From positions 1 to 27,171 of IMG/VR virus record IMGVR_UViG_3300042565_000868: a DNA stretch of 27,171 nt. One strand, 5' to 3'. The DNA is from a virus. The position numbers and the translations under genes are program-made. Numbering within the stretch: position 1 is the first letter of the stretch; every line of letters begins with the position of its first letter. A model generated the notes under the pieces. It was given only the letters and a program-made list of their open reading frames with translations. It made no database searches and was not told where the DNA came from. Of the stretch, positions 4,303 through 26,854 are shown one piece after another.

Positions 4303-4484
4303 CGTTTCTTCTTATCTTTAAGCGACCAGACCTGGGATGCACCGTACAACACAGCACCAGCCACTACAGGCTCAGCAGCGGCTGCAAGGTTATGAGCATC
4401 AGCATCGCTAACGCCAATGGTAAGCAAGCTACCAGCAACCAATGTCAGCAAGTGTCGAACTATCGAGAAGATAACAAGTTCCAT
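4299..4484 (-). CDS. putative holin, Pam3-gp28-like
   Basis: This 61-residue protein has two hydrophobic segments (about residues 6-24 and 33-52) joined by a short polar loop (GVSDADAHN), and a basic tail (KDKKKR). Size, topology and the IVRHLLTLVAGSLLTIGV opening match the Pam3-gp28 family of putative phage holins, which form the inner-membrane holes that start lysis. An AGGAAG element lies just upstream of the ATG, inside the end of the secreted-protein gene it overlaps by 25 bases. It is the last gene of the leftward late transcript and sits with three other lysis-type genes. Lethal hole formation is inferred. Confidence 0.82.
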   Translation of the reverse strand: MELVIFSIVRHLLTLVAGSLLTIGVSDADAHNLAAAAEPVVAGAVLYGASQVWSLKDKKKR

Positions 4485-5281
4485 GCAATTCTTCCTGCCT
4501 TGGCAAGTTTATAAATAGAATGATTGCAATCCCTGCTGGATGGGGTTTGCCAGCTTCCAGAATTGCAATTCATCCATGCCGTCCAGTAGAACCGAACGTC
4601 ACATTGTTTAGTGTTATTGTAGAATGTTTCTAAGTCAACAATAGAATTAGCCTCTGCACCATCCATGTCTGCTATGCACGGCTGTTTAAGAGAAGGATTA
4701 AATCCGTGTCGCTCACAGACGGTTCCTGCAATACAGGACGCTCTGAGAGGATTATCCACAATGACACAGCCAGGCAAAACAGCAGATACAGCACTAATGA
4801 GAGCTTTTCTAGCAGGTACATTAAGATCGCACTCCAAACAAGGTGAAACGTAGCAAGTGAGCTGCCCTTTTGACTGCTCAAGTCGCTGTTTCAATCTTTT
4901 GGCCAAAACGTCTAGCCGTCTTCTTAGTCGTGAATTTGATATTTTTGCCGCTCTGTTAGCTGAAGCTATCGTGTATCCATAGAAGACGTCATGCGGCTCA
5001 CAACGATTATTTCTAAGGCAAGGACCGTTGGCTAAATGTACTCTAATGGTCTTAGGTTTATCCTGTTTTAGTATTGTATTGGCGCACTCACACGCACTTC
5101 CGAATGAGTCCTCTAACCATCCAACGTTTATAGGCTTTCCACGCCATGTAGCGAGCGTTTTGTCGCAGGGCCAAGACTTACTGCATAGTCCAATATAGCT
5201 TGTTGCTTGAGCTGCTGTGTGGCTTGGTATCAATATCAATATTATTAGTATCGATATTCTGACCACACTAAGCCAAGTCAT
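4460..5281 (-). CDS. secreted cysteine-containing protein of the lysis region, unknown activity
   Basis: The 273-residue protein has a clear Sec signal: MTW..VVR then a hydrophobic core (ISILIILILIP) and a likely cleavage after AQA near residue 26. The mature part has more than a dozen Cys, expected to pair in the periplasm. Recurrent motifs are IRVHLANGPC (about 79-88), SPCLECDLN (about 146-154) and VDNPLRASC. I recognise this pattern from signal-peptide proteins placed beside holins in other phages, but no biochemical role is known to me. It could act on the cell wall or outer membrane. Its ATG overlaps the upstream stop (ATGA). Retention in the periplasm is likely; the enzymatic role is unknown. 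Confidence 0.88.
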   Translation of the reverse strand: MTWLSVVRISILIILILIPSHTAAQATSYIGLCSKSWPCDKTLATWRGKPINVGWLEDSFGSACECANTILKQDKPKTIRVHLANGPCLRNNRCEPHDVFYGYTIASANRAAKISNSRLRRRLDVLAKRLKQRLEQSKGQLTCYVSPCLECDLNVPARKALISAVSAVLPGCVIVDNPLRASCIAGTVCERHGFNPSLKQPCIADMDGAEANSIVDLETFYNNTKQCDVRFYWTAWMNCNSGSWQTPSSRDCNHSIYKLAKAGRIAWNLLSSR

Positions 5282-5912: not shown

Positions 5913-7391
5913 CTAGCCGCAATAAAGCACTGTTGGTACGCAGTAACTTCCATCCACACCCTCATGACTTCGATGCGTTGAAGTTACTTTGCCAATCGTT
6001 GAAGATTTTATCTCAGTTTCAACCTGAACTCTTGCAGTGCCGTCGCCGTTAGACTCAAGTAGATCGCCTATTGCTACGGTAACACCAGCACCGACACGGC
6101 AAACAAACGCACCAAGAGAAGTCACATAGAGATCGTTAGTTTCATCCCAGCAATTATCCCAGGCACTAAACACGCCATACACCGCAGGAGATGCAACAGT
6201 GTCAGAAATCTTAACCTTTGGAAGCACTTCCTCTACTTCGTTAGGCCATTCACACATCTCACCAATCGACTCTAAAACAGTGCCAATTAATATCTCTGGT
6301 CGACTACCGTCTTCAAGTTGACTCCAATGGCTTCCTGAAAATGCATTATAGCTAACAGTGCCAGAGGCTACGGAAATTGAGCCCACAGTCGTAACGCCAC
6401 GAATAAATTCAACCATTGTGCCGTCGTCAGTGCGTCGATTTACTCTCAGACCAACACCACCACCACCCGTACCTGCGCGGCTTGCTTCAATTAGTCCGTC
6501 AGTACGAACAACCGCTCCAGTAACGTTATTACTCGCTGGTGCGTCATTGGTTGTACCAACGCAAAAGTGGCCATCGGTGGCACTAAACCTAGCTCGTTCA
6601 GTTGCATTGTTGGTAAAGATGATAGGGTTAGCACCAGCTTTCTGCATTCGCAAATAAGTAGTGTCGCTTTCAATCCGACCAATTTCGGTACCTGCATTTT
6701 CAGTCCACAGCAAAATACCAAGGTTATCGGATGCGCGTCCTCTTAAACTCATGGTAATTCCGCTGGTAAGTGCCGCAACGTCTACTCGACCATTGGTAAC
6801 GCTACCACCAACCGCTAAACGACCAGTGCCGTCTAATATCATGCGGCTTGCACCATCCACCACAAAGTCAATATTAGAACCAGCAGCAACATCATTCAAA
6901 TCAGCTTGCAAGGTTAAACTGCCACCAGTGCTATTTCCACTGATAGAGGCAATGGCTCCACCACCATCAGTGTCTTCTAGTCGTATCCGCGGCGCACTTG
7001 ATTTCAAGTGAAGCAATTCGGCTGGAGCATTAGTTCCTATTCCCACATTGCCAGTGCTATCAATGCGCAGTTTTTCACTGCCATTAGTAGAAACTGCCCA
7101 AGTATCAGCAGCTGGTCCAAAAACTCCAGTATTAACATCAGCGCCAACACAAAGAGCTGGAGCAGCAGCAGAACCTGCTGCGATGTTTGTTAAGATGTTG
7201 CCACCAAGATTGAGGTTGCCAGTTGCAGCATTAGAACCATCCTTGTTTAGGCACTGGTTAATACCGTTCATGAAGTCATCATCTTGCGTATCATGACGAC
7301 CAGCCTCAATGCCAATACCTAGCGACGCATCGCCAGTCCAACCATTGGTGCTATAGTTTCCTTTGCGATATGTTCCACCTGACCAAGCCAT
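5913..7391 (-). CDS. tail fibre or spike-type protein
   Basis: This 492-residue protein opens with MAWSGGTYRKGNYSTNGW and a segment (DDFMNGINQCLNKDGSNAAT, about 38-57) typical of the virion-binding end of podovirus fibres. Asn/Gly-rich beta-repeat sequence follows, including GNVGIGTNAPAELLHLKSS as in many fibre and S74-type proteins. The C-terminal part (about 350-492) has GDLLESNGDGTARVQ and TIGKVTS..., then DGSYCVPTVLYCG, a closing domain I recognise from other phage fibres and which may aid trimerisation or maturation. It starts one base after the upstream stop and sits between ejection and lysis genes. It probably contacts the host surface. No enzymatic motif is evident. Confidence 0.9.
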   Translation of the reverse strand: MAWSGGTYRKGNYSTNGWTGDASLGIGIEAGRHDTQDDDFMNGINQCLNKDGSNAATGNLNLGGNILTNIAAGSAAAPALCVGADVNTGVFGPAADTWAVSTNGSEKLRIDSTGNVGIGTNAPAELLHLKSSAPRIRLEDTDGGGAIASISGNSTGGSLTLQADLNDVAAGSNIDFVVDGASRMILDGTGRLAVGGSVTNGRVDVAALTSGITMSLRGRASDNLGILLWTENAGTEIGRIESDTTYLRMQKAGANPIIFTNNATERARFSATDGHFCVGTTNDAPASNNVTGAVVRTDGLIEASRAGTGGGGVGLRVNRRTDDGTMVEFIRGVTTVGSISVASGTVSYNAFSGSHWSQLEDGSRPEILIGTVLESIGEMCEWPNEVEEVLPKVKISDTVASPAVYGVFSAWDNCWDETNDLYVTSLGAFVCRVGAGVTVAIGDLLESNGDGTARVQVETEIKSSTIGKVTSTHRSHEGVDGSYCVPTVLYCG

Positions 7392-19392: not shown

Positions 19393-19406
19393 CATTAAGC
19401 CTTTAG

Positions 19407-20471
19407 CTAATCGCCGCCAAAACGACGACGAAGGTTATCCCGTAAATCTTTTGATACTACTCTCGGAGCCCCACTACCTGCGGACCCAGAGATTGAGCGA
19501 GAAGCGGATTTAGCCTTTTGGACTACCGCCTGTTTTTGATCCATCACTACCTTTGCAGTCATTGCTGAATTGAGACTGGAAAAGGTCGGGTTACCAGCGA
19601 CTACATAGTTATAAGCAGTTTCCAGTATCTCCTCCGGAGAGCTGTATTTGCCTGTACCTGTAAGCGCACTCACTATTGGAGCCATCTCAGCCTCTAACTG
19701 CGAAGCTGTTTCAGGGTCTCTAAAGAGAGGCTTGGCTGACATGAACGATTCTACAACCCGCTCATTATAATAGGCAACGGCAGATTGTTGCTGCTGCTGT
19801 TGGTAGGATTGAAACTTTTCCTCTGCTATCCGTTCAGCCTCTTCACGTGTCAGATAGTTTTGCTGCTGCGGGGATTCATATCCTTGCTGGAATGCCTGTT
19901 GTTGGCTTGCCGAAAGGTCATCAAGGGTCAACCCATAAGAGTCCAGCCATTCTAACGCCGTTTGAACAGGGTTATTTTGCATGGCGCGGTCCCATGCAAC
20001 CGACCGCTTGGCTATATCGCCGAGGGAAATGCCCTGCTTAGCATAGTCGTTCTCGTACTCTTTGATTGTATCAACGATGCTGGAAGTCTGCTTTTTAAGC
20101 TGCTCAACCTCCACCATATGCCGCTGATGATCGCTTCTAAGCTCATAAGCTCTGCGATTCATATACTGCTGCAAGATATGGGAATTGGCTGGTGTAGGGT
20201 TTAAAAATGCTTCTTTTTCAGCCTTGTTCATATCGGCTGGAGGAACAACAGGTATTCTCTCTACCTGTGGGGCAACCTCAACGACCTCAGGCTCTTCTTC
20301 TGTCTCAGGGTTGTTATGCTCTGGAGCATCATTTACAACCGCATCATCTTCCTTTTTAAATTGCTTAGAAAGAGCTTGCCGAATGCTTACCTTTGCCTCT
20401 TCGCGCTCTGGAACAATCTCAGTATCCTGCGGCGTTAAGTCCTGCTCTACGTCTGTTTCTACACTATCCAT
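19407..20471 (-). CDS. putative scaffolding protein
   Basis: The 354-residue protein is highly charged and Gln/Glu-rich. It has an acidic N terminus, the NPTPANSHILQQYMNRRAYEL helix (about 91-111), a coiled coil (VEVEQLKKQTSSIVDTIKEY), a Gln-rich middle (YQQQQQQSAVAYYNERVVES) and a basic C terminus (KDLRDNLRRRFGGD). In P22 the basic C-terminal helix-turn-helix of the scaffold binds coat protein. Position directly upstream of the major capsid gene, length and composition all fit a scaffold that templates procapsid assembly and then leaves. Its ATG lies inside the end of the preceding gene (8-base overlap). Confidence 0.87.
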   Translation of the reverse strand: MDSVETDVEQDLTPQDTEIVPEREEAKVSIRQALSKQFKKEDDAVVNDAPEHNNPETEEEPEVVEVAPQVERIPVVPPADMNKAEKEAFLNPTPANSHILQQYMNRRAYELRSDHQRHMVEVEQLKKQTSSIVDTIKEYENDYAKQGISLGDIAKRSVAWDRAMQNNPVQTALEWLDSYGLTLDDLSASQQQAFQQGYESPQQQNYLTREEAERIAEEKFQSYQQQQQQSAVAYYNERVVESFMSAKPLFRDPETASQLEAEMAPIVSALTGTGKYSSPEEILETAYNYVVAGNPTFSSLNSAMTAKVVMDQKQAVVQKAKSASRSISGSAGSGAPRVVSKDLRDNLRRRFGGD

Positions 20472-20784
20472 TTAGTCTCTCCTTTACCTGTCTCATAAAA
20501 TTGGCCACAACCTGCTTTTCACGTGCTTCCGCATGGCGTTCAGGGTTGTAACCACGATCAAACTCTGTGCCGACTTCTTCAGCACCAGCAGCTTTATAAG
20601 CCGCCCTTAACTTGCTTTTGCTTGTATAAATCTCTCTGGGATTAAGAGGGTTTCTAGTTGGTGGCATCTCATCGTGGATAAAGTGATGCGCGGCATTGGC
20701 ATGAACTCGCACCATTACCTCTTCTACTGGTACAACTTTCTTTTGTATGTGGCACCACTGAAATAGTTTGTGTTTTTCTGTCAT
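20464..20784 (-). CDS. conserved-type small phage protein of the head operon
   Basis: The 106-residue protein contains FIHDEMPPTRNPLNPREIYT (about 35-54) followed by SKSKLRAAYKAAGAEEVG, a pattern I recognise from many phages between portal and scaffold genes. Its N terminus WCHIQKKVVPVEEV has a single Cys and no clear zinc site. Function is not established, though a virion-assembly or regulatory role is possible. The start shares TAATG with the upstream stop. It is basic and probably soluble. Confidence 0.85.
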   Translation of the reverse strand: MTEKHKLFQWCHIQKKVVPVEEVMVRVHANAAHHFIHDEMPPTRNPLNPREIYTSKSKLRAAYKAAGAEEVGTEFDRGYNPERHAEAREKQVVANFMRQVKERLNG

Positions 20785-21269
20785 TAGTCATCCATTGTGC
20801 TTAATAAGAACAATACTCTTATTTTCTTCGCTTTAATCTTTTGTTTGCGTTTTTGTTCAAGTTTGCGCTGATATTCCTGCTCAAGAACATCTTTTGCCTG
20901 TTGCAGTTTGTTGGCAAACTCTATGACTATTGCTTGAGTTTCTAGCTGAACCTGCCGCTGATATTCAGCCATAACACGAGCAACATCAGCTCGCATTTCT
21001 TCGGTAAATTCAAACTTTGGCTCTTCTGCTATTATTTGCGCAGAAAGCTCTGCTGCAATCTCTACAGTAGTTTTACCAGCCTCTAGCTGTTTCTTTATCT
21101 TCTTCTTAAAAGATAATTGCTTGCGCTTTTCTTGCTGCTTAGCTTGTCTTTCTTTAAGAATCTTTATTGCATAAGCTTCCTCTATTGCAGATGAACGCTT
21201 CTTAAATCCATCTGGATCAAGAAGCTGAACCTGCAAATAGCTTTGAGGCGGCTTAAAGATTAGAAACAT
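20784..21269 (-). CDS. Lys/Glu/Gln-rich coiled-coil protein
   Basis: The 161-residue product starts MFLIFKPPQSYLQVQLLDPD and then becomes almost wholly charged helix (about 28-155) with heptad-like spacing, including KILKERQAKQQEKRKQLSFK and LEQEYQRKLEQKRKQKIKAK. A weak non-helical break lies around GKTTVEIAAE. No enzymatic or membrane motif is seen. It lies one base after the preceding gene, in the head gene block. It may be an assembly or portal-associated protein, but function is unknown. Confidence 0.8.
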   Translation of the reverse strand: MFLIFKPPQSYLQVQLLDPDGFKKRSSAIEEAYAIKILKERQAKQQEKRKQLSFKKKIKKQLEAGKTTVEIAAELSAQIIAEEPKFEFTEEMRADVARVMAEYQRQVQLETQAIVIEFANKLQQAKDVLEQEYQRKLEQKRKQKIKAKKIRVLFLLSTMDD

Positions 21270-21270
21270 A

Positions 21271-21549
21271 TTACTCGGTTATTTCAGCCGTAACCGTATG
21301 CAGTTGGTTATAAGCTAGCAAAATATCCTTAACCTGCTCTGAGCCAGAGAGTCCAAGGTATCCGCTAATGGCGTTAGCAATTATGGCGCTAAACAGCGAC
21401 GATACTTGTGGCTTGCATACGTTTTCGCAAACGTACTTGTTTACTGTTAGCTCTGATCCTTCGCTCCAACCATGAGTTTTAGCGATGATTTGGAGATATG
21501 GCTCAAACCCTTCTGGCAACGGCAATTCAAACTGCACTGAGACTTTCAT
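21271..21549 (-). CDS. small hypothetical protein
   Basis: The 92-residue protein begins MKVSVQFELPLPEGFEPYLQ, a short strand followed by a helical stretch, and has two nearby Cys (VCENVCKPQ, about 40-48) that could form a disulfide or bind a ligand. A more hydrophobic helix (SSLFSAIIANAISGYLG) follows. The ATG overlaps the thioredoxin-fold gene's stop (ATGA), so it is co-translated with that gene. No family recognised. Confidence 0.8.
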   Translation of the reverse strand: MKVSVQFELPLPEGFEPYLQIIAKTHGWSEGSELTVNKYVCENVCKPQVSSLFSAIIANAISGYLGLSGSEQVKDILLAYNQLHTVTAEITE

Positions 21550-22049
21550 TTAAGCACCTCGACTAACTCTGAGTTAATTTTTTGCAACTGAGCAGTTAAT
21601 AGTTCAATGTTGTAAGTAAGCTCACCACGTTGAGCAAACAACTGATATGCCTTTTGCCGTTTCTCTTCAGCGGCTTTTTCCTGCTGCTGTATCTTGCTTG
21701 GGATAACTTGGCCCGTTGCTAACCAGTGCTGAAGCGAATCTGAATAGAGCATCCCGAAATGGCGCTGCTTTAGCTCTCCACGCTCAAACACAAACAAGGC
21801 AGGAACTGAATCTTTAATGACGTCTGACTTATCTTGTCGCATCCATGTGCGTTTAAACTCGGATGGCTGTGGTGTTTTATCCATTGGATGCGAAACTTTC
21901 AGCATCCCTGTTTCATATCCACTCAAATCAATCTTGGGTAATTGTTCGTCAAGTCGTGTGCAGTACGGACAGTTGTCTGCGTATACCTTAACAAGCACCA
22001 ATTCTTGCTTAATAAACTCTTTAACAGTCTCTTCGTTTAATACAATCAT
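21546..22049 (-). CDS. thioredoxin-fold protein with CPYC active site and coiled-coil tail
   Basis: The start is ATG 22049, preceded by a GGGGAG ribosome site and placed 10 bases after the fibre stop; the longer frame to 22193 would lie inside the fibre gene. The 167-residue protein has a strand KVYADNCPYCTRLDE with Cys27-Pro-Tyr-Cys30, the glutaredoxin-type CPYC. A loop and then DSVPALFVFERGEL follow, with cis-Pro83 and a strand, as in thioredoxins. Residues about 117-167 form a Gln/Lys-rich coiled coil. It would catalyse thiol-disulfide exchange in the cytoplasm; no signal peptide is seen. Its neighbour upstream is a fibre with 33 Cys, a likely substrate. Confidence 0.9.
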   Translation of the reverse strand: MIVLNEETVKEFIKQELVLVKVYADNCPYCTRLDEQLPKIDLSGYETGMLKVSHPMDKTPQPSEFKRTWMRQDKSDVIKDSVPALFVFERGELKQRHFGMLYSDSLQHWLATGQVIPSKIQQQEKAAEEKRQKAYQLFAQRGELTYNIELLTAQLQKINSELVEVLK

Positions 22050-22059
22050 TGTCTCCCCA

Positions 22060-24039
22060 TTATTTACCAAAAACATACCAGTTAGACGATACCACATAAT
22101 TACCCGAGCATCCGGAATAATATGTAGCCGCTTCGCACGAAGATTGATCTCCGTAACTGGAACAAGATGCGCCACCTCCGCAAGTCGAGCCATCCCATAC
22201 GCAATTTAAATAGTTCTGCGTACAGCCGCTAGTAGATCCGCAACTGGCTTCGTTTAGCGCACCGCATGATAGGGATCGTATAAACGGACTAATGTGTACC
22301 CAATCTTTAAAATTAGAGAGCGTATAAGAGGTCGTATGGTCGATAGTTTCACTGCCAGCCGGCACGATTATCACGTCTGCGTTCGTACTCGATGCGTTAT
22401 AGATCCAATAGTCTCTGTCGGGACATGATGTAATTGACGGTAGCGTTAGTGAGATGGCTGTTGCCCAGTTGCAGCCAGGCTCATTGTTGCAGTTAGTAGA
22501 ATCGTCGATACCCCCGCACGATGCCGTGCCGCTACAGGCTGCGCCGTATACTCCGGTACAGTTTCCGGTAGCATACGTTCCTTCACAACTATACGAATCG
22601 TAAGTACCTGAGCAACTAACAAACCACGATCCGCCAGTACAAGCACCGGTACCGCTATCATAGCTACAAAAACCACCGCCGTTAGCTGCGTTACACGCTG
22701 TACCATCTCCGCCGCCATCTGAGTAGTTAGAACAGTCGTCAAAGTTCTGCGTACATCCTGTCGTAGATCCACAAGCCGCTTCGTTGAGAGGCGAACAATC
22801 CTGTGGATTGTTATTCCAACTACATCCAGTATAGCTGTTACAAGTTGACTCATCGCCAAAACTTGAGCAGGACGCTTGTTCCCATGTGCATCCAGCCGTG
22901 CCTTCGCAACTTGACTGATCGCCGTTATAAACAGCGCAAGAGTTTCCAGCAAACCATGAACAGCCGCCGTGTGCATCACGAGCTAAACACGTTGCTTCTG
23001 TCGTGTAGCTGCTACACGCATTGGTGGGAGCGCCATTACACGCCGCTGCTGACGGATCTACGATCCATTCCGTCGCTGTGTTGTCCAGTGTTTGATTTGC
23101 GGTGATATATTTGACTTTTAATGCTGTGCCACCTTGCGACATCAAAGTACTGCTTGGACTAGTATTACCGCCCGCGTTTACACCGTTAAGGAAAGCCCCG
23201 TATCCGTAATGCGTGAACGTGCTAGGTATGCTGTAACTAAATAGGCTATTTGTAGCCTTGGTGTAGGTAGCAACACCGTTGCCAGTAGGACCAACGTAGG
23301 TATTGACTTCACCAGATGAGCTAACGCCAATATGTGCCGCATCGGTGTTGTTGAATTTGAAATCGATCCAAGTATGAGAGCCTGTGTTCTCTAAAGAAAT
23401 ATGCCGTGTCGTTCCGGGCGAACTGTTTGATTTAGCAAGCCCCGAAATTGTCGCAACGCCTTGAGTCCCACTACCTTGAACAAGTAGATCGCCAGTAAGC
23501 ATCCGACCACCGCTGAGCACTCTCACGCTTACATCGTCTACAGTAAAACGAGCGCCAATAGCAGTTGGATTGAGAGTTATTCCGCCAGTCGTTGTTGTAA
23601 CCACGCCACGAAACGTAAAGGTTCCGTTTGTTGTTGCCGATCCAACAAAGTTTCCAGCGACTGTGATTGTTACGCCACCTACCGTAACGTTAGAAAGAGT
23701 AAACGTAACTTCGAATCGTTCGCCTAAGCTCATTGATATGGCTTGCGTCAGACCGCCTGTGCCGTTTGTATTGTGACTGACGCTATTCGATGAATATGAC
23801 CATCCGGTCGGAAGAGTCCATCCCGTTGAGCTACCCGTAAACGATCCGTTAGTCACTCGCTCTTGAGACGTTGACGATACTGAAAGCCATTTGTTCGTGT
23901 TGTCCCAGTTCAGATTGCGGCTATCTTGCGTTATCAATCCAGTAGAACCGCCAAACGTAACGCCGCCAGTAACGAGCGTTGGGACTCCCGCGGCTGTGAA
24001 ATCAAAGTTTCCGGTGAATGGATTAAAAACGTATGGCAT
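22060..24039 (-). CDS. cysteine-rich tail fibre or receptor-binding protein
   Basis: The 659-residue protein opens MPYVFNPFTGNFDFTAAG, a virion-anchoring motif of fibres, followed by beta-rich Gly/Ser/Thr/Asn sequence with a jelly-roll-like domain (about 58-175). No Cys occurs before residue 334. From there the usual C-terminal fibre domain (TANQTLDNTATEWIVDPS, SLTLPSITSCPDRDYWIYNA, SETIDHTTSYTLSNF, then SSNWYVFGK) is interrupted twice by Cys-rich loops, about 331-525 and 588-645. Together with Cys539 that makes 33 Cys. It is coupled to the upstream gene by TAATG and followed by a CPYC thioredoxin-fold gene. It probably binds the host surface. Classification as fibre is firm; the role of the Cys modules is inferred. 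Confidence 0.92.
   Translation of the reverse strand: MPYVFNPFTGNFDFTAAGVPTLVTGGVTFGGSTGLITQDSRNLNWDNTNKWLSVSSTSQERVTNGSFTGSSTGWTLPTGWSYSSNSVSHNTNGTGGLTQAISMSLGERFEVTFTLSNVTVGGVTITVAGNFVGSATTNGTFTFRGVVTTTTGGITLNPTAIGARFTVDDVSVRVLSGGRMLTGDLLVQGSGTQGVATISGLAKSNSSPGTTRHISLENTGSHTWIDFKFNNTDAAHIGVSSSGEVNTYVGPTGNGVATYTKATNSLFSYSIPSTFTHYGYGAFLNGVNAGGNTSPSSTLMSQGGTALKVKYITANQTLDNTATEWIVDPSAAACNGAPTNACSSYTTEATCLARDAHGGCSWFAGNSCAVYNGDQSSCEGTAGCTWEQASCSSFGDESTCNSYTGCSWNNNPQDCSPLNEAACGSTTGCTQNFDDCSNYSDGGGDGTACNAANGGGFCSYDSGTGACTGGSWFVSCSGTYDSYSCEGTYATGNCTGVYGAACSGTASCGGIDDSTNCNNEPGCNWATAISLTLPSITSCPDRDYWIYNASSTNADVIIVPAGSETIDHTTSYTLSNFKDWVHISPFIRSLSCGALNEASCGSTSGCTQNYLNCVWDGSTCGGGASCSSYGDQSSCEAATYYSGCSGNYVVSSNWYVFGK
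22108..22266 (-). repeat. second cysteine-rich insertion of the fibre
   Basis: Codons for residues 592-644 contain 9 Cys and sit just before the closing strand SNWYVFGK. The opening CGALNEASCGSTSGCTQN is almost identical to CSPLNEAACGSTTGCTQN (residues 415-432) in the first insertion, showing that the two insertions share an origin. Confidence 0.8.
22465..23040 (-). repeat. first cysteine-rich insertion of the fibre
   Basis: Codons for residues 334-525 contain 23 Cys, with a loose repeated unit of the type C-x(8)-C-x(5)-C-x-W, for example CSSFGDESTCNSYTGCSW and CAVYNGDQSSCEGTAGCTW. Gly, Ser, Thr and Asn dominate between the Cys. The unit varies in length and later parts are more degenerate, so it is a diverged array rather than a fresh tandem repeat. 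Confidence 0.8.
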
Positions 24040-24287
24040 TACGATCTCACGACACTTGTAAGATTTCCGCTTGTGTATCCAAGAGTAAGGGTCGCAACAG
24101 TTACGCCACTAAGTCTATAAATGACTCCAGTCAAATCAGCGCCAGTATATGACAGCGTAATTTGATCATACGGCTGATTGACAAGACCCTGAACTATTTC
24201 CTGATATACGTTGCCATTTCTAACAACAGTAGCAACAGGAATATCAGGATTAACTGCGGTCGCTGAGTTTGATACTGTTGTCGGCAT
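24039..24287 (-). CDS. small virion-type protein between portal and fibre
   Basis: The 82-residue, beta-rich protein (VNPDIPVATVVRNGNVYQEI, SYTGADLTGVIYRLSGVTVA) has Thr/Val/Gly content like small tail or fibre-base proteins. It overlaps the portal stop and the fibre start by TAATG on each side, so the three are tightly coupled. It may be a fibre-attachment or chaperone-like protein, inferred only from its neighbour. No signal or membrane segment is visible. Family not recognised. Confidence 0.83.
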   Translation of the reverse strand: MPTTVSNSATAVNPDIPVATVVRNGNVYQEIVQGLVNQPYDQITLSYTGADLTGVIYRLSGVTVATLTLGYTSGNLTSVVRS

Positions 24288-26854
24288 TAGTCGATCTCCT
24301 CAATGTCGATACCCACTGGGTTGCCTTCGGAATCGCTGATAATAGTTCCTTTGCGCTTTTTACTTCGCGTTGGAGCTTTCTCCACAACCATTGGCTTATC
24401 CGTTTGAATCATGATCGGAGATTGTTGAACAAATTTTTGAGCAGCATCCATGCTTACTCTAATTTGTTCAATCTGTTGTTCCTGTTGCAATCGTCGCTCT
24501 TCCATCAATTTTTCTTGTTGAGAAAGACGGAACTGCATTTGCTTGGCATCAAGCTCCTGAACCTTCAGCAATCCTTGCAAGCGATTGTTTTCAGCAGTTA
24601 TCTCATGCTTCATGTTTTGACCTTCAGTCATCGCCTGAACCTTGAGCATATCAACTTGAACTGAATTGGCTTTAATCTGCAATTCTTGCTGCTTCAATGC
24701 CAACTCTTGCTCTGCCACATACTGATCCAACTGAGCCTTTTGCATCTGGATATTGCCAGATAGTTGTTCGCGTTGCATCTTCATCTGCTGCTCTTGAGCC
24801 GCAAGAATGTTCTTTTCATGACCATCTTGAGCCTGGATTTGAACTGCTTGGATGCGAGCTTGCGATTCCATTTGAGCAATCTGCATTCGTGCTTGCATTT
24901 CCTGCATAACAGGGTCTGGAGGTGGAGGTTGTTTCGCCGCTTCCTCTTTAGCCTGAGCAATTTCACCAATCTGATTAAGTGCCTTGGTAAAGATGCCATC
25001 GAGCTCTTTGCCAGACTTGAATCGCTTGATCACGTTCTGGAACAGCTCGATTGAGAATCCTAATAGTGGAGGGTATTGCTCAATGAGAGAACGCATCTGA
25101 TTGAAGAACTCGCCAGCAGTTGACATGAGTTGCGCACCCTCTTGCTGCTCTTGCGCTTGATCAATGGCAACCATGCTGTCGGAAGCAATCTTGATGCGGT
25201 AACTAATCCTATCGTCATCACGCAAGAACCCAAGGATTTGCTCTTTAACCATAGCAATCTGCTGCTCTGGAGTTGGTCCCATTGGCATTGGAGGTGGCAT
25301 CATTTCCATACCTGGCTCGCCTGGTGGCATACCTTCTGGCATTGGAGGTGCTGGTGGAGGCTCTGGTGGAGGTGGCAACACCGCTGTAATTATGCGGTCG
25401 GCATCGCCAACATCGAAGATTGTCTCTGGGTCAAACTGCTCCGCAATAATCGTGCCAAGTTTTGCAATCGCATCAGAGATAAACTTGCAAAACATATTCT
25501 GTCTTACAACAAGACCAAGGGACGACCATTGCGACTCAAGCCTGTTAGCTGTTGCAGACTTATATTGCTCTGATGTTCCGCGAAGGAGATCAGATACTTT
25601 GAGGGTTTCGTATAGTTGCTGGAGTGCTGATTGCCTAGCTGCTTGAAGCTGTTGAAGCGCATTAACATATGGAGTTATGTCCATAAACTCAACGCCAGAT
25701 TGAAGACCGCCACGGCTCTTATAGGACGGCCAATTCATGACTGGGACCATCTTTAGGTCGCCAATCATAAGTTGCTCAACCTGTAAGCCTAGCGAAGCAT
25801 CATAAAGCGCATTAGTGCGGATGGTCTGAGTTACGGCATGAACGCGAGTTGTAAGCCGCTCAATCTCAAGGATTTGGTCTTTTACATGAGCATAGTCTGA
25901 TACCGGAAGAACGCTATCAGGATCAGCACTCTGAGCGATTACAGAACAAGGGTAGAAGCCTTCAAAGTCTATAGGTGGCTCTGACTCATGAATGATAAAC
26001 TTCTCAGCAGACTTATGACCCCAGTAAACACGCTCTGTTTCTTCACACCAAATCTCGTGTACTTCTGCCTTACCTTCGTACTTATCAGCGTCCTTGTTCC
26101 AATCCTTTGTTGCTTTATCTGGAAACGAATCAAAGTGCATCTTGTCGGCAACTTCAGCACCGAACAGTTCTTCTGCTTGTGGTCGTGTAAGGTATGCACG
26201 GCGTGACCGCCACTCTACTTCTGTTTCGTTACGAGCATCAGAACAGAAATAATCGTTGTATTGAACAACGTCCAAGCAAGCATCATCGCTTTCTTTCTTC
26301 TCAATCTTAACCTTGGCAAGAATTAAGCCACCAGGACCTTCACGTTGTTCGATGATCTCTTGAGTAAATGGTTGTCCCTGGTCGTCCAATAACGTCCCAT
26401 CCGCCGACGGGAAGAGAGCGATTTCCATTTCCTCTTCCTCAATCTCTGCCTCATATCGCGCCCATAGAACAGCACGGCCAGTAAGAAGGAACTGCAACGC
26501 TGCGTTATACCCAACATTATCAAATGGAAACTCACAGTCCATTACATACTGGATATTCCGTTCAAGGATAACTGCGGATAGTTCTTCAAGTGTGCCACCA
26601 GTGCGCTTACGAAGACTTACTTCTGCTTTTGGCGTGGAAGAATAATAAGCAGGTAAGAGAGTATTAACACAATACCACCATACGTTAAGTCTTCGCTCTG
26701 TATCATTTAGAATGCCTACTTGCTTCTGCGCGTTATAAACGCGGATAGATTCCTCGGCCATTTCGATGAACTTTTTGGATCGCTCTTCTGCACGGGTTAT
26801 TTCCGTTTTCCAATAAGTAGAAGAGAATCGTTCAACTAATGGCTTAATCTTCAT
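24287..26854 (-). CDS. portal protein with long coiled-coil C terminus
   Basis: The 855-residue protein has a podovirus portal pattern: ERRLNVWWYCVNTLLPAYYS (about 53-72), YNAALQFLLTGRAVLWARYE, YFCSDARNETEVEW, GFYPCSVIAQSADPDSVLPV and SDLLRGTSEQYKSATANRLE. Residues about 492-532 form a Pro/Met-rich linker. The region about 645-815 is a Gln/Glu/Lys coiled coil, ending in a basic, then acidic tail. Portals form a dodecamer at one capsid vertex through which terminase packs DNA; in P22 a C-terminal coiled-coil barrel extends into the capsid, and the long coil here may do the same. It is larger than P22 gp1 (725). Its start overlaps the terminase stop (ATGA). Confidence 0.94.
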   Translation of the reverse strand: MKIKPLVERFSSTYWKTEITRAEERSKKFIEMAEESIRVYNAQKQVGILNDTERRLNVWWYCVNTLLPAYYSSTPKAEVSLRKRTGGTLEELSAVILERNIQYVMDCEFPFDNVGYNAALQFLLTGRAVLWARYEAEIEEEEMEIALFPSADGTLLDDQGQPFTQEIIEQREGPGGLILAKVKIEKKESDDACLDVVQYNDYFCSDARNETEVEWRSRRAYLTRPQAEELFGAEVADKMHFDSFPDKATKDWNKDADKYEGKAEVHEIWCEETERVYWGHKSAEKFIIHESEPPIDFEGFYPCSVIAQSADPDSVLPVSDYAHVKDQILEIERLTTRVHAVTQTIRTNALYDASLGLQVEQLMIGDLKMVPVMNWPSYKSRGGLQSGVEFMDITPYVNALQQLQAARQSALQQLYETLKVSDLLRGTSEQYKSATANRLESQWSSLGLVVRQNMFCKFISDAIAKLGTIIAEQFDPETIFDVGDADRIITAVLPPPPEPPPAPPMPEGMPPGEPGMEMMPPPMPMGPTPEQQIAMVKEQILGFLRDDDRISYRIKIASDSMVAIDQAQEQQEGAQLMSTAGEFFNQMRSLIEQYPPLLGFSIELFQNVIKRFKSGKELDGIFTKALNQIGEIAQAKEEAAKQPPPPDPVMQEMQARMQIAQMESQARIQAVQIQAQDGHEKNILAAQEQQMKMQREQLSGNIQMQKAQLDQYVAEQELALKQQELQIKANSVQVDMLKVQAMTEGQNMKHEITAENNRLQGLLKVQELDAKQMQFRLSQQEKLMEERRLQQEQQIEQIRVSMDAAQKFVQQSPIMIQTDKPMVVEKAPTRSKKRKGTIISDSEGNPVGIDIEEID

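Follow-up and report, generated by a model that had tools for sequence, protein, structure and literature searches.

A cysteine-rich phage fibre and the thioredoxin-fold protein encoded beside it as a candidate disulfide folding pair

Phage fibres are usually Cys-poor, and proteins that fold in the bacterial cytoplasm are believed seldom to carry stable disulfides. The stretch of viral DNA analysed here (27,171 nt, referred to below as the window) encodes a fibre with a Cys-rich tip and, directly after it, a protein with a thioredoxin fold, and an earlier note on this DNA had raised the possibility that the two form a phage-encoded disulfide folding pair. The question posed by this locus is whether the two genes belong together and whether the second could serve the folding of the first. 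The features concerned, in the direction of reading, are:

24287..26854, minus strand: portal protein, used as context and as tree marker
24039..24287, minus strand: 82-aa gene upstream of the fibre, which also occurs with Cys-poor fibres
22060..24039, minus strand: Cys-rich fibre of 659 aa, with an N-terminal phage fibre part (residues 1–333, Cys-free) and a C-terminal Cys-rich tip (residues 334–659, 33 Cys)
22471..23040, minus strand: first Cys block (residues 334–523, 24 Cys), with repeats C-x8/9-C-x4-G-C-[ST]-W, common to all four fibre lineages
22063..22458, minus strand: beta tip domain (about residues 528–659), like those of T4 gp10, TSP4 and the Pa223 capsid spike, with the second Cys block as an insertion ahead of the final strand
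22108..22266, minus strand: second Cys block (residues 592–644, 8 Cys), missing as a whole in lineage L158
22050..22059, minus strand: 10-nt spacer with ribosome site TGGGGAGACA, separating the fibre stop from the thioredoxin start
21546..22049, minus strand: thioredoxin-fold protein of 167 aa, with CPYC at residues 27–30, Val82-cisPro83, an insertion at about residues 53–80 and a C-terminal helix (residues 119–166) with an LFAQRGEL motif
21271..21549, minus strand: small 92-aa gene (CxxxC) after the thioredoxin gene, found in the window-type cassette only

Recounting the cysteines on the translated fibre gave the uneven distribution claimed earlier, with none in residues 1–333 and all 33 in residues 334–644. 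The fibre label itself is based on architecture, that is, on a phage-type N-terminus, a match to phrog_30593 and a tip domain resembling phage proteins: in a structure search of the PDB, residues 527–659 matched domains of T4 gp10, CBA120 TSP4 and the Pa223 capsid spike at a middling level (Z 5–6 over 65–67 residues). When the Cys-poor fibre of L056 was compared by eye with that of the window, the Cys blocks were placed in loops of the tip domain, which suggests that both are loop insertions of an ordinary beta tip domain; such loops would face outwards, in line with an adhesion surface. The protein may be a tail fibre or a head fibre. The window also holds a second fibre-like gene within its tail module (5913–7391, minus strand, phrog_9942/18345 tail fiber), and the Cys-rich fibre may therefore sit on the head or serve as a second adhesin.

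The Cys domain is modelled as structured (AF2 pLDDT 84, with the repeats mostly over 90), and a PDB search with the whole-domain model returned no match for the Cys repeats, the beta tip alone being matched. No named family was found for this domain in Pfam, NCBIfam or PHROGs, and its relative in UniProt (A0A6J5M4N0, a 198-aa fragment from an uncultured Caudovirales phage, sharing 71% identity with the Cys domain model where the two align) is entered as an uncharacterised protein only. Across 12 aligned relatives 32 of the 33 Cys columns are invariant, compared with 12 of 50 for Ser and 4 of 31 for Ala, so that the Cys richness is not a matter of chance, and all 32 core positions are retained in a fibre as distant as 64% identical over the Cys domain. 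The remaining cysteine, C539, is an extra residue of the main clade outside the core of 24 + 8, and when it is left out the divergent fibres carry 24, 32, 32 and 36 cysteines per domain, always an even number; in L158 the second block drops out as a unit together with its eight cysteines. The core of 24 + 8, being even in total, would allow for up to 16 disulfides, this parity being a prediction of disulfides and not proof of them.

Downstream of the fibre, the thioredoxin gene starts with an ATG at 22049, 10 nt past the fibre stop and with a GGGGAG ribosome site of its own, exactly as had been proposed; a 215-aa open reading frame at this locus was rejected as the true extent of the gene, since it is an in-frame upstream extension into the fibre gene. 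The predicted fold (AlphaFold2, mean pLDDT 85.8) matches thioredoxins of the PDB with Z of about 13 and an rmsd of about 2 A over 98–99 residues, and the residues claimed for the active site are present, with Cys27-Pro28-Tyr29-Cys30 at the start of helix 1 and the cis-proline Pro83 opposite. Among the aligned relatives C27-P28, C30 and P83 are invariant and Y29 differs only in L219. The description of the protein as cytoplasmic-looking holds as well: the fold begins at residue 2 and the first active-site cysteine is residue 27, so that a signal peptide would not fit, and the sequences of every other lineage likewise lack the space for one. Of the coiled-coil tail, what stands is one long helix of 48 residues (119–166) predicted by AF2, the coiled coil itself going back only to the earlier note's own reading of the sequence. 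It could be argued from this long C-terminal helix, which would suit assembly, and from the position of the gene among virion genes, that the thioredoxin-like protein works at the cell surface as a component of the virion or a cofactor of the fibre, engaged for example in thiol exchange with the receptor at attachment; such exchange would leave the retention of all 32 core fibre cysteines unexplained, and we consider this very unlikely.

Whether the two genes travel together was examined by scanning IMG/VR with three queries (thioredoxin, portal and Cys domain) and, in two scans, with a DNA pattern of the Cys repeat; all of the sequences are metagenomic contigs, and these scans reach mainly close relatives, so that unpaired Cys modules may be missed. 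Many matches of the DNA-pattern scans were dropped because they lay antisense or in the wrong frame, or fell in low-complexity, Cys-rich reading frames unrelated to the module. Thioredoxin-bearing contigs numbered 23, the window included, and a Cys-rich fibre lies directly upstream in all 23 (the contigs L001 and L008 cover no more of it than its end), the distance from fibre stop to thioredoxin start being 1–18 nt or, in L219/L206, 244 nt with one 85-aa gene in between. Conversely, in all Cys fibres with readable downstream DNA the thioredoxin is the next gene or the next but one, a count which leaves out L011, L116 and L117, as these end inside the fibre. A case of the same thioredoxin beside a Cys-free fibre, which the earlier note had named as evidence to the contrary, was sought and none was seen among the 23 thioredoxin contigs. 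The long fibre reading frames of L103 and L104 were considered as possible fibre-thioredoxin fusions and rejected, the thioredoxin starting 1 nt after the stop. The 85-aa gene of L219 (10650–10907, minus strand) is Cys-free and coiled-coil-like and might contribute to docking. Bacterial genome contigs gave no relative of the pair, and annotated phage records yielded no relative of the Cys domain and ordinary thioredoxins only.

Records that share the portal family but have Cys-poor fibres, several of them short fragments, gave no thioredoxin match at E up to 1 (0/28), whereas 11 of the 12 Cys-fibre records contain exactly one PF00085 match, the neighbour of the fibre, and the thioredoxin of the twelfth (L115) was recognised by hmmscan (Fisher p 2e-10 for 12 records against 28 controls, relatedness being ignored). 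The co-occurrence predicted for related phages is thus borne out, at 23/23 contigs against 0/28 portal-family controls. These figures also bear on the reading that this is an ordinary metabolic phage thioredoxin, a reductant for ribonucleotide reductase or a polymerase factor, placed here by chance. Such a reading can point to the weak Pfam thioredoxin matches (21.5 bits with PF00085 for the window protein, below the gathering threshold of 23.5, and 24.9 for the L158 relative), but the ordinary phage thioredoxins (those of BRock, LuckySocke and very large phages) have 102–106 aa, lack the tail, lie in tRNA regions or elsewhere and are not flanked by a Cys-rich gene. In the thioredoxin tree all Cys-fibre thioredoxins stand on one side (support 91/92, not starred), L115 forming a very long branch. 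Given also the absence from the 28 control records, chance placement of a metabolic thioredoxin seems to us scarcely credible. Since the tree groups them all together, with that same unstarred support, independent recruitment of each thioredoxin lineage is not claimed.

Co-occurrence of adjacent genes may have a simpler cause, and the window-type cassettes, being both homologous and adjacent, owe part of theirs to co-transfer. A portal tree of 41 phages shows at least 5 trait changes, and both genes change together in 5/5 independent contrasts with no discordant row; five contrast pairs set a floor of 0.06 for the sign test, and co-transfer of adjacent genes would also yield 5/5, so that functional coupling and co-transfer are not told apart by these contrasts. 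The divergent lineages distinguish them better, but number only three. Phage backgrounds with the pair number at least five and pair lineages four; the thioredoxins of these lineages are mutually about 20–34% identical, with active sites that vary (CPNC in L115, CPYC in L158 and CPKC in L219/L206, each in another phage background). Upstream genes and fibre N-termini at the pair differ in L094, L103, L115, L158 and L219, the fibres of L094 and L103 having a collagen-like N-terminus. In L115 the Cys domain is 64% identical to that of the window and the thioredoxin only about 20%, meaning that the partner that is kept is a CPxC thioredoxin fold and not one particular sequence.

That the pair moves between phages is apparent from sequence identities: within the window clade the portal may be 26% identical where the fibre is 82% and the thioredoxin 77% identical, and the nearest portal relatives of the window, up to 94% identical, have other fibres and no thioredoxin. 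The stretch from the portal to the major head protein (19400–24290 in the window, and in L012–L090) is a swapping site, relatives with 80–94% identical portals having wholly different fibre genes or none. It might then be supposed that the thioredoxin is a mere hitch-hiker in a mobile fibre cassette and that the cysteines bind metal or stay as unpaired thiols, and the window-type cassette does move as a block together with the 82-aa and 92-aa genes. Yet the 82-aa gene is also found beside Cys-poor fibres and so is not specific to the pair, and no homologue of the 92-aa gene was found in L115, L158 and L219, which leaves the thioredoxin, always present, as the constant partner; moreover, the same Cys module adjoins very divergent thioredoxins, and the Cys spacing lacks the CxxC pairs of zinc fingers. 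We regard this explanation as highly improbable. The gene link proposed in the earlier note as a disulfide folding pair is thus supported by the adjacency, the empty controls, the unrelated backgrounds and the divergence of the thioredoxins. The gene pair, its conservation, its co-occurrence and the predicted fold of the partner are observed.

Two further Cys-rich proteins were encountered. A different virion-like protein in a 33-kb record (L119, 7008–8558, 516 aa, 31 Cys) occurs in a record with no detectable thioredoxin, from which it follows that the link is specific to the present Cys module and not general. The window itself encodes, near tail and lysis genes, an exported 273-aa protein (4460–5281, minus strand, 16 Cys, with a signal-peptide-like start) that could receive periplasmic disulfides from the host; it is found at 26–75% identity in many phages of the group, with or without a Cys fibre, and was for this reason rejected as a further partner.

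In which direction the thioredoxin would act on fibre cysteines is best approached by comparison with known systems. Like the isomerases DsbC/DsbG and like DsbA, it combines a thioredoxin fold with CxxC and a cis-proline, CPYC being the site of DsbG and Val before the cis-proline being as in DsbA (PMC4960241). Unlike them it is cytoplasmic, lacks both the export signal and the N-terminal dimerisation domain of DsbC/DsbG, carries a C-terminal helical tail and is encoded beside one substrate gene. With glutaredoxins it shares CPYC and a Val-Pro (SVP) ahead of the next strand, and a glutaredoxin profile was weakly matched in L104 and L115; in contrast to them, its fold and profile are nearer to thioredoxins and it has the extra insertion and tail. 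A GG motif, as in a glutathione site, was not seen by eye. As CPYC is also a glutaredoxin motif, glutathione is possible as an electron acceptor. In engineered HP0231 of H. pylori, CPYC together with Val before the cis-proline gives both oxidase and isomerase activity (PMC4960241), and this likeness, taken with the close coupling of the two genes and the missing signal peptide, favours a cytoplasmic, fibre-dedicated isomerase/oxidase-chaperone.

The main rival is that the protein acts as a reductase or holdase, keeping the fibre cysteines reduced and unmixed until lysis releases the fibre into oxic water, where disulfides would form spontaneously. The reducing host cytoplasm, the thioredoxin fold and the lack of a signal peptide all agree with this, it explains the co-occurrence equally well, and in 12 records no phage oxidase was found: Erv1/ALR (PF04777) was matched in 0/12 of these possibly incomplete records, in a search whose Erv1 control was positive in 1/14 genomes, and neither DsbB nor VKOR was seen in the same records. 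The marks of a classical thioredoxin are, on the other hand, absent, the site being NCPYC and not WCGPC (Trp replaced by Asn, Gly-Pro by Pro-Tyr), the buried Asp26 being replaced by an invariant Lys21 and the RGIP loop by DSVP, and as the host has general thioredoxins of its own, the phage would have less need of a dedicated reductase than of an isomerase or oxidase. On balance we consider a reductase or holdase unlikely.

In line with the earlier note, which knew of no described phage system of this kind, the papers searched contained no account of a thioredoxin coupled to a Cys-rich fibre in a phage. Small genes that lie directly downstream of a fibre gene and travel with it are familiar as phage tail-fibre assembly chaperones, T4 gp38/gp57A and Tfa, which are not known to have a thioredoxin fold or a redox site. 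The thioredoxin gene behaves like such a fibre-specific chaperone in being downstream of the fibre in 23/23 contigs (with one gene between in two) and co-inherited in 5/5 contrasts. By function, the nearest analogue is the poxvirus E10R-A2.5L-G4L pathway, which ends in the thioredoxin-like protein G4L and in which a viral thioredoxin-like protein provides virion proteins with disulfides in the reducing cytoplasm (PMC1318495). The present pair differs from it in that no Erv1-like oxidase was found, one thioredoxin adjoins one substrate, the virus is a bacterial phage, and no homology is shown.

Taken together, we consider it likely that the pair consists of a disulfide-rich, receptor-binding-type fibre tip and a dedicated cytoplasmic thiol-disulfide folding partner, that is, an isomerase/oxidase-chaperone. 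Late in infection the newly made fibre tip would find itself in a reducing cytoplasm, where its Cys-rich loops would misfold or stay open; the thioredoxin, translated directly after the fibre, would probably dock via its conserved C-terminal helix/LFAQRGEL region, and Cys-Pro-Tyr-Cys together with Val-cisPro would form and reshuffle the fibre disulfides, with a chaperone function in addition. That the cysteines are disulfide-bonded in the virion, that the two proteins bind each other and that the redox direction is that of an oxidase or isomerase rather than a reductase is what we infer from these comparisons. To the fuller proposal, in which a family of tailed phages would build a receptor-binding tip of some 16 disulfides in the bacterial cytoplasm by means of its own fibre-specific thioredoxin-fold oxidase/isomerase, as a portable two-gene cassette spreading between unrelated phages, we would give roughly even chances.

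If true, a phage-encoded thiol-disulfide partner dedicated to one substrate would be a new way to fold a virion protein, and the pair would provide a two-gene tool for the production of Cys-rich proteins in bacteria as well as a marker for spotting disulfide-rich adhesion modules in metagenomic phages. The pair makes cytoplasmic disulfide formation by a phage directly testable by co-expression in laboratory E. coli, and it suggests that a helper for forming or sorting disulfides inside the host cell is supplied by the virus itself.
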